From: Tubiluchus corallicola | Lineage: Eukaryota; Priapulida; Priapulimorpha; Priapulimorphida; Tubiluchidae | NCBI GenBank assembly: GCA_030141605.1 | Contig: JAQGDQ010000405.1 | Location: 1 to 64,000 of the forward strand | Length of the DNA: 64,000 nt | Direction: 5' to 3' | Part shown: in pieces, positions 26,801 through 29,800 of the stretch | Layout: each line of letters begins with the position of its first letter | Numbering within the stretch: position 1 is the first letter of the stretch | Position numbers and translations under genes: made by a program | Notes under the pieces: model-generated | Told to the model about the DNA's origin: nothing | Databases searched by the model: none | The model's input: only the letters and a program-made list of their open reading frames with translations

Positions 26801-29800
26801 TTAAAATGAAAACCAATATGGAAAACCAATGCAAGGCCATTTTTTCAAAACAAAACAAATGCTTGTTTTACCTGAATGAATGGATTCGTCGTGATATTTA
26901 CTGGCATAATAGATCCGTGTCAATCTTGTGCTCTAGATATGATTTTCCAGTTTTTCTGTAACAAGAGTTGTGTTTTGTTTTTGTTATCCATGTTGAAAGT
27001 GGAATCTTATTTCAGTTATTTCTGCTTCTAATATAAACTGCACATTGTCACATGAATAACTTAATTGAAATGATTCTAAGACTTTAATGGGTTTCTAATT
27101 GCCTGTCTTGCCCTGTAATTTAGTTGAAATGTAACCTTTTTTGTCCAGGTTACAGTCACTTTTGAACCATCGCATGAAGCACAACCAGGAAAAGAGGTGA
27201 AAGTTCGCATTGATACTAATCCAAACTCGTTTGTTGGGCTCTTAGCTGTTGACAAGAGCACCGAATCGTTGTTGTATCGCCATGATTTAAAGCGGATGCA
27301 GGTAATAATATATATAATAGGGCTGTGCTAACTGACGAGAAGTTATTATCATTGTCAGCTGTATGAAAAATAACATAATAAAATCTAAATACGTTGACCT
27401 TCGCTTGGACTTGAACCAAAGATTTTAGCTTACCGTGCTGTTACGCAAGCTCTGTCCCGAGCAAGCATAATTTATGATTCATTACCTTGTCCTTTAACAT
27501 ACAGACACAATATCATTCCATTATTGTTGATATTATCTGAATTACTGTTTATGGATTGTTTGTTTGTTTTCCTTTTAGATTATGCTTGTGTTTTTGTCTT
27601 TTAGATTAAAAAAGAATTAAGCCAGTATTCAACGCCAGACAACTGCCAAGCGAAATACAGTGAGCCTATAAATCTAAATGCTCTGCCTTCTCATTTTGCA
27701 CGTGCATCTGCCCCTGGACGTTTGCCAGTTAGGTTTCCTAGTGGAGGACCTGGATTTGTACCCGGCTCAGCCGCCAGATTTATGCCAGTTATGCTACCTA
27801 GTGGAGGATCTGGACTTGCACCTGGACCTATTGCTGGACCTTTGCCAATTGAATTATCCAATGGCAAACCTATTATGCCAGGACGTGCTGTCAGGTCCAT
27901 CAATGAACCTTCACCAGGACGCGCACCTGGATTTGCTGCCGGACCTTCACCAGTCAAACTACCTGGTGGAGGTTCCGCAATTCTTGGGCATGGAGGCCTG
28001 GCAGCACTCCTTGGACTTGAAGGTCAAGATCCACCTGACACTGAAAAGTCTGTTACTGCAGATGGTAAAGCAGCTGAAGTTAAAGATGAAAATATTGACC
28101 GGTTGAGTACTGATGAACTTGACCAAGTCTCTCCTGACCCTGCTAATAGATTGCCAAAGAGATGTATGAGAAGTGAGCCACTGCCAGAGCGGTTCGGAAA
28201 GTTTTCAGGATATCATAATCCTGGCAATACCGGTTCTGTGATAGTGGTATGTATGGTATAGTTTTATGCAATTTGGCAAGCTAGAATGTAAAAGTGGCAG
28301 GGCCTATAGGCTGTAGATGTTCATAGCAGGACTGGAACCTGGCTTATCTCTGCTAATTTTCTAAATCTAAAATGAGACACTGAACAGCATATGTGAAAAG
28401 CTTTCTGTAACATTGCAATAAGTGCTTTCTTGAAATCTTGGATTTCTTTCAAGTTTTTGTTTTGGAATTCATAAAACCTAATATTCTTAACATTGATTAA
28501 CTTTTGATTCACTGTATTCCTATTTCTGAGTGCAAGATTAGCTAGAAATGAGTAAAATGCAGTGCTATAATCATAGTCATTTTTTATGGACCAAAAGTGG
28601 AAAAAGTTCTTTTGGTTTTATTCTGTCCATCAGCTGAAATTCTTTGACATGCGTGCATGATCTGATTCCAGTACAAGATTTTTTACTTTTCCCACTTCAC
28701 TAGTTAATCGCTACCATGACATTTTAAACATTGACTTTTTGTTCAATAGAAATTTTTCAAATTACTTTTGGACATGAATCTATTTCACATCATTTTGTAT
28801 TTACAATAGAAAAACTTGACATAGAAGCAGTTGTTCTACAGTTGGGAATATCTGGGAGACTGTAAATTGTGTGACTGTTTACGAAATCTTTGCATGCAGA
28901 TGAAATACAAAAAATAATTGTGTGCTTGCTTACCAAAACGGTCCATAAGTTGGCATAGTCAAAACTACGTTATGATGCTTCAAAGTAGAATGACCCAAAA
29001 ATTTGATCAAATGTCAGTTTTTCGTGTTTTATAAAAACAACGCTAAATATTTTTGTCTTTTATATTCTAGCATTCAGAATAGTGTTCAAAAACCGTAAAA
29101 ACTTGATTTTATAACTCTTTACCCACTTTTCTGTCTAGAAACTTGTACTGCAATTGTAAAAAACTCCTATTTTCAAACTCTGATAGTAGCTCCTGGAAGC
29201 TGTCATTTTGCTTCAGGCTTTTTCTGTTTCCAAGACCAGATCTTCGTCAGAAAGAGCCATGTACTGAATTTAAACATAACTTCAATGTGTTCTTGGAAAG
29301 CCCGTAGCAACCAATATTTGTGCGGTTACTAAGTGTTTTGTAGAAATGCAACAAAAAGCAATGGTTATCTATAATAGCAATTTTTTCAAGGTTATGTTTT
29401 TTCAGTGCATAGCATCCACCTCAACTTCAACTTGGATTATCTCAGCTTAGAAATAACGTACAGTGATGAGCTTGGTATCAGTATCAAAATGATCCTCATG
29501 AAATGGAGATTCAGGATATGTGAATAACTAGAAAAGCTTAACTACCGACTTATGGACAATTTTGCTATGCAAGCACACATTTTTAAAAAGAACGAGAAAG
29601 TGTTAATAAAAGAAATATCCTTCCCTCAGCTTTCATTATTAAATTCTGGTTGCAGTATTTGTAAACACCAACTGTTATTTTTATTTGTCAGGATGCAGGT
29701 TTGGTTGTCTTGACTGATGCTTATGTTCTTGGAGATGGTGGCATGTTTGGCTTTGGTGAAGGTGGTAAGTGTTAATTGACTGAGTTGCATTTCAGTAAGT

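Follow-up and report, generated by a model that had tools for sequence, protein, structure and literature searches.

An exceptionally long LNK loop predicted in a CD109-like protein of Tubiluchus corallicola

Gene model and family assignment

The window, that is, the whole stretch of 64,000 nucleotides analysed here (C586:1-64000), belongs to a Tubiluchus corallicola assembly that was searched as 343.5 Mb in 2344 contigs. Its plus strand, to which all exon coordinates below refer, carries a CD109-like gene at approximately 11.6 to 51.0 kb, modelled as 32 exons from open frames and splice scores. The model exons from 24439 to 34538, which include the region of interest, are joined without a phase break, and three phase breaks lie elsewhere; the third exon is unsettled. 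A signal-peptide exon was looked for in this gene and none was found, and the exon numbering (for example, exon 14) is therefore provisional. A likely GC-AG intron (32494-32827, ATG/GCAAGT) separates two MG7 exons.

Homology to the A2M family was found with Pfam for A2M (E 6.7e-19), A2M_BRD (E 2.6e-7, over the first 38 residues of exon 13) and TED_complement (E 2e-26 for the thioester-domain exon with GCGEQ, 34362-34538, taken jointly with the next exon); a 65-residue piece of the gene, searched for an MG8 receptor-binding domain, gave no Pfam match at E 0.01. Over MG6 to MG7, human CD109 (PDB 8s3o, 9fx2) is the best match among the 32 PDB sequences listed (E 2e-23), followed by A2M (1.9e-14) and TEP1 (4.3e-10). 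The plug GLRKLFTETW aligns to VRKHFPETW of human CD109, both R and F of R-K-x-F being kept. The last exon (50368-51011), which has no Pfam match, encodes a Thr/Glu-rich stalk and a hydrophobic C-terminal tail, whose likeness to a GPI signal was judged by eye. The gene is thus predicted to encode a CD109-like thioester protein of the CD109/A2M superfamily, in agreement with the original prediction.

The window also contains the C-terminal piece of a second A2M-family gene upstream (9126-9482, on to approximately 10977; Pfam A2M_recep E 0.00022, later pieces by eye) and retroelement pieces with reverse transcriptase (RVT_1) and RNase H domains at 2903-3688 and 56472-57014.

Exon 14 and its composition

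Four exons cover the region of interest: exon 13 (27149-27301), with the first half of MG6 and the LNK helix region; exon 14 (27605-28246; 642 nt, 214 codons, phase 0-0), the LNK exon with a large internal insert; exon 15 (29692-29764), with DAGLVVLTDA and the start of the bait-like segment; and exon 16 (30449-30587), with the remainder of that segment and the plug RKLFTETW. Exon 14 DNA has one match in its own genome, itself. A fully open frame 1 arose in 0 of 5000 first-order simulations based on the exon and in 0 of 5000 based on the window. Since other frames over exon 14 are also open (142 codons on the plus strand and 110 on the minus strand), openness is not decisive alone, and we relied on splice scores, on GC content by codon position and on the homology of the exon ends to a paralogue. 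The acceptor score is 8.0 (range 6.5-8.5 over 16 compared exons) and the donor score is 7 (range 5-9 over 15 compared exons, one GC donor being excluded); GC content at the three codon positions of the Pro/Gly-rich core is 0.70/0.66/0.24, the introns having 33% GC; and both ends match an exon of the paralogue C2127. Exon 14 is a real exon.

It opens with the conserved start IKKELSQY (27605-27628), identical in five of eight positions to VIEELSQY of the paralogue and corresponding to VVHELELY of human CD109. The extra stretch, whose exact limits are uncertain, spans 27635-28225. Residues 1-35 include Cys14 (codon 27644-27646), located 5' of the Pro/Gly-rich core (27710-28024, residues 36-140), which comprises about 105 residues with 40% P+G in about four degenerate 20-residue units. 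Downstream of it lies an acidic stretch (28025-28159, residues 141-185, net charge -6), and residues 186-214 contain Cys187 (28163-28165), directly after a Lys-Arg pair, and the exon end NTGSVIV (28226-28246), which aligns to NSFAVFQ of human CD109 with two of seven residues identical and resembles NSGSAAGVIE of the paralogue.

The repeat was detected by TRF (period 60 nt, 2.2 copies, score 135, 68% matches), and the best match at the 60-nt offset (45/60) was equalled in 0 of 1000 simulations. The original prediction had described a 214-residue Pro/Gly repeat exon holding about 200 residues of approximately 20-residue repeats plus an acidic tail. The exon with its limits and phase, the repeat itself and the acidic stretch stand; however, only about 105 of the 214 residues are Pro/Gly-rich, and the repeats amount to about four units at spacings of 20, 20 and 35 residues.

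The protein search that had been proposed for exon 14 gave no Pfam family and no PDB match up to E 10, and the suggestion of a collagen- or elastin-like spacer was dropped, as nowhere in the exon do three or more G-x-y triplets follow one another. The same results argue against a ligand- or matrix-binding module, in which hydrophobic Pro/Gly and acidic segments would bind a partner; the composition of the insert would suit it, and MCR, according to the available text of PMC7016707, carries an LDLa module that replaces the bait or anaphylatoxin, a module that may likewise bind a partner at the MG6 site of MCR proteins, but we consider such a module highly improbable. By tblastn against viral_contigs, neither exon 14 (24 pattern stretches) nor the thioester exons (4) showed a relative.

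Whether the insert is a flexible loop, as originally claimed, was approached with two composition scales, the charge-hydropathy rule and TOP-IDP, and these disagree. The charge-hydropathy rule places the whole insert on the folded side (0.455 versus the boundary at 0.415) and the acidic part alone on the other side, whereas the mean TOP-IDP of the insert, 0.21, leans to disorder (0.15 for exon 13 and 0.05 for MG6-MG7). Flexibility is therefore predicted, not proven.

Comparison with paralogues

Fifteen thioester matches were found in the genome, the window gene included. The upstream DNA was examined for nine of the other 14, the five weaker ones being left out; the LNK exon was found in six of the nine and not found upstream of the match in C2265 or in two C509 copies. 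The latter are near-identical and lie head to head on a 33.9 kb contig, a possible assembly palindrome.

The closest paralogue found, C2127, is 69% identical in the thioester exon and has the same exon order: a match to exon 13 is followed by VIEELSQYGKTSSHSHGPRPVPLLRHRWWPWFQNSGSAAGVIE (129 nt, phase 0-0) and this by DAGLVFLTDAFIYGE. Its LNK exon has 43 residues, starts with VIEELSQY, lacks Cys and sits in phase 0-0 between the exons matching exons 13 and 15, the next exon carrying DAGLVFLTDA. The alignment score of exon 14 to this exon exceeds those of 500 of 500 shuffles, the ELSQY start and the exon end being conserved. By this alignment, exon 14 corresponds to the LNK exon and carries about 171 additional residues; it is an ordinary LNK exon with inner growth and not an inserted cassette. 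The prediction of an insert in place of a short linker is thus retained for the long low-complexity stretch, compared with the short or medium linkers of solved relatives and of six paralogues, but the exon itself is no insertion.

In the LNK exon of paralogues C1689, C1395, C1567 and C1986 we observed R-K-K-R, which we take to be a furin-like site and which is altered to R-K-K-H-R in C2311; two-chain processing, by analogy with complement C3, is possible for the paralogues with R-K-K-R.

The homology of the two LNK exons also bears on splicing. Exon 14 might be skipped or swapped for alternatives, or part of the repeat might be removed from the mRNA; we regard this as improbable. Phase 0-0 would permit in-frame skipping, and paralogues do have tandem plug exons, but skipping would leave nine residues, versus 36-76 in relatives, and no second copy of exons 14-16 was found in the window by tblastn. 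That exon 14 is a skippable or swappable cassette accordingly appears unlikely. Scans for alternative exons gave 0 rows at the stricter setting and 11 at the looser one, none in phase 0-0. In intron 14, an open stretch (29378-29519) would fit exon 15 in phase; it overlaps, however, one copy of a dispersed repeat (17652-18161 and 29001-29508, 80% identical), whose two copies lie in separate introns of this gene. Within exon 14, three in-frame GT-AG pairs bound stretches whose removal would keep the frame open, in one case (27660-27953) with loss of residues 19-116; none of the other 15, much shorter, exons contains such a pair. The site sum of the three pairs, 13.0, equals that of the weakest three of 15 model introns, but the stretches between them have 49-51% GC, versus 33% in introns, and an internal intron is therefore disfavoured.

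Position of the insert relative to the bait

Exon 13 and the first 10 residues of exon 14 align to human CD109 chain residues 588-640, and the last seven residues of exon 14 with exon 15 onward align to residues 649-808. About 197 residues of exon 14 thus replace eight. The exon ends align only weakly to human CD109 alone (i-Evalue 0.27 for the first stretch; identities 4/10 and 2/7). The reference letters used in these comparisons match the PDB chains in 221 of 221 positions for CD109 and in 166 of 166 for A2M.

We then measured the span from the LNK helix position (A2M Met607, described as a channel residue in the accessible part of PMC9352918) to the Asp/Glu of the D-x-G-L motif. It is 223 residues in the window gene, 36 in CD109, 65 in A2M, 76 in A2ML1 (counted by hand) and 54, 66, 66, 66, 66 and 67 in the six paralogues, whose exon 13 ends were set by eye. 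The distance between the D-x-G-L motif and the plug arginine, in contrast, is 54 residues in the window gene versus 52 in CD109 and 60 in A2M. The linker of the predicted protein is enlarged and the bait is not, so that the suggestion that the insert could extend the bait is not supported. The site had also been placed next to the bait. It is indeed near and upstream; however, the insert lies in LNK, and NTGSVIVDAGLVVLTDA separates it from the bait segment. Published CD109 bait numbering (651-683, as given in the accessible text of PMC7960916) is 21 below the chain numbers of 8s3o, which puts the end of the insert about 23 residues upstream of the published bait; a model with exon 14 abutting the bait was dropped.

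A bait-like role of the loop had been part of the original prediction. As an accessory or second bait, its exposed chain would be cut by proteases, triggering or tuning activation. The insert does hold 20 Lys/Arg, and alternative exons cluster in the bait region both in this genome and in snail TEPs, as described in part of PMC7016707. On the other hand, the insert precedes the conserved DAGL stretch, the bait has a normal length, according to the available text of PMC9352918 activation is triggered when the plug C-terminal to the cut retracts, and cuts inside the loop should be silent if its cysteines pair. Such a role is very doubtful.

Diversification of the bait seems to proceed differently in the paralogues. 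Tandem plug exons were found by tblastn in C1986 (seven), C2265 (six, one of them degenerate), C2127 and C2311 (two each), and these plug/bait exons are probably mutually exclusive. The window gene has one plug exon, versus at least two in C2127. In the paralogues the bait thus seems to vary through copied exons, the window gene having enlarged the linker instead. The tandem plug/bait exons resemble those of Biomphalaria glabrata BgTEP2, and the variable regions of BgCD109 and BgTEP2, like the LDLa of MCR, likewise concentrate diversity or added modules in the MG6/bait region; these systems use alternative bait exons or a folded Cys-rich module, in contrast to the one long low-complexity LNK exon seen here (comparison with the accessible text of PMC7016707).

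Repeat growth and selection

The loop probably grew through coding tandem repeats, and tandem arrays are numerous in the window (31 TRF rows). They include a minisatellite of 39 nt x 55 inside an intron of the CD109-like gene (14436-16586), two upstream minisatellites of 25 nt (2179-2941, x 30; 3866-5143, x 51) and an in-frame 39-nt repeat in the last-exon stalk (50410-50564; four copies of 13 residues, 93% matches), compared with which the array of exon 14 is more diverged (68%). This picture fits the growth of coding minisatellites at tolerant places.

The insert could thus be a neutral passenger, a coding minisatellite that grew in a tolerant loop and drifts with little effect beyond harmless length. 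We take this to be a real possibility. The insert is shared by none of the six paralogues with a found LNK exon, one of the neighbouring arrays is intronic in the same gene and another coding in its last exon, and the corresponding site of A2ML1 is described as unmodelled in the available part of PMC9156758. The ratios pN/pS for the six pairs of repeat units point both ways: pN is close to pS in three pairs (0.26/0.29, 0.51/0.48 and 0.52/0.56) but smaller in the three pairs with unit 4 (0.24/0.62, 0.26/0.42 and 0.39/0.60). These ratios, calculated from few sites, indicate no strong constraint on the exact letters. The intact frame across 214 codons and the GC-rich codon positions 1 and 2 amid AT-rich surroundings also argue against free drift. 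Judged at the sequence level, the frame, the codon GC and pN/pS show a constraint on composition, not a function.

Possible role of the loop

The reading that we favour, with a little less than even confidence, is that exon 14 is an ordinary LNK exon in which an inner loop, enlarged by about 170-200 residues and largely unstructured and exposed, helps to hold and shield a trapped protease. What is read from the sequence is the place of the insert (after the first LNK helix region and before the D-x-G-L motif), its length and composition, the unchanged length of the bait and the lack of both cysteines in the matching exons of six paralogues. The rest follows the monomeric inhibitor A2ML1, in which LNK residues 634-668 are unmodelled in both the native and the cleaved form and whose authors propose, as a hypothesis even there, that flexible LNK parts touch, hold and shield the protease (available text of PMC9156758). 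Mapped by hand (chain number + 18), this loop ends two to three residues before the conserved stretch, which is the place of the insert. From its position and composition, the loop would most likely act as a larger version of the A2ML1 loop: presumably unstructured and exposed for the most part, it would hang at the protease-trapping cavity, as proposed for A2ML1, help to hold the protease until thioester capture and then shield it, a role that would suit a monomeric, membrane-anchored inhibitor. Protease inhibition by the protein is itself putative, and we infer the function of the loop.

The predicted protein is CD109-like with an extreme LNK loop; among the literature matches listed, no title or abstract opening describes a Pro/Gly insert in LNK, which does not prove its absence. 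If the loop works as we read it, the gene would offer a natural test of whether disordered LNK segments, and not the cage alone, hold and shield the protease in monomeric macroglobulins, with the 43-residue version of the LNK exon in C2127 as a ready-made control. It would also be a case in which coding tandem repeats expand a tolerant loop next to a protease sensor and leave the length of the sensor itself unaltered.

A more specific variant concerns the two cysteines. Cys14 and Cys187, the only cysteines in model exons 13 to 20, have 172 residues between them and by comparison are both new, since exon 13 and LNK exon counterparts in the six paralogues have none. Were they bonded, the path from the helix to the motif would shorten to about 53 residue-equivalents, versus 54 in C2127. 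We guess at such a disulfide; other cysteines, e.g. in exon 24439-24603, could be the partners instead. If the pairing is real, cutting the loop alone should leave the plug in place. In engineered A2M, lengthening of the bait during synthesis impairs the native form and a small disulfide loop partly rescues it, cuts inside disulfide-closed bait loops are silent until reduction, and a 23-residue bait loop failed to close (accessible part of PMC9352918); those loops, however, are in the bait and not in LNK. The protein could accordingly be pictured as a natural closed-loop macroglobulin: a disulfide gained with the insert would latch a 172-residue Pro/Gly-rich net that proteases may cut without firing the trap, a sacrificial decoy and tether keeping the protease at the bait and, like the engineered LOOP variants of A2M, redox-gated, changing only on cut plus reduction. 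We think this rather unlikely.

Human A2M has a partly similar arrangement at the same position: Cys642 of LNK and Cys689, which shortly precedes the bait, are separated by 46 residues and presumably form a disulfide pair; the second cysteine, however, follows the D-x-G-L motif, whereas Cys187 of the window gene precedes it. The Lys-Arg pair just before Cys187 (28157-28165), although short of a full furin motif, is a possible processing site inside the putative loop.
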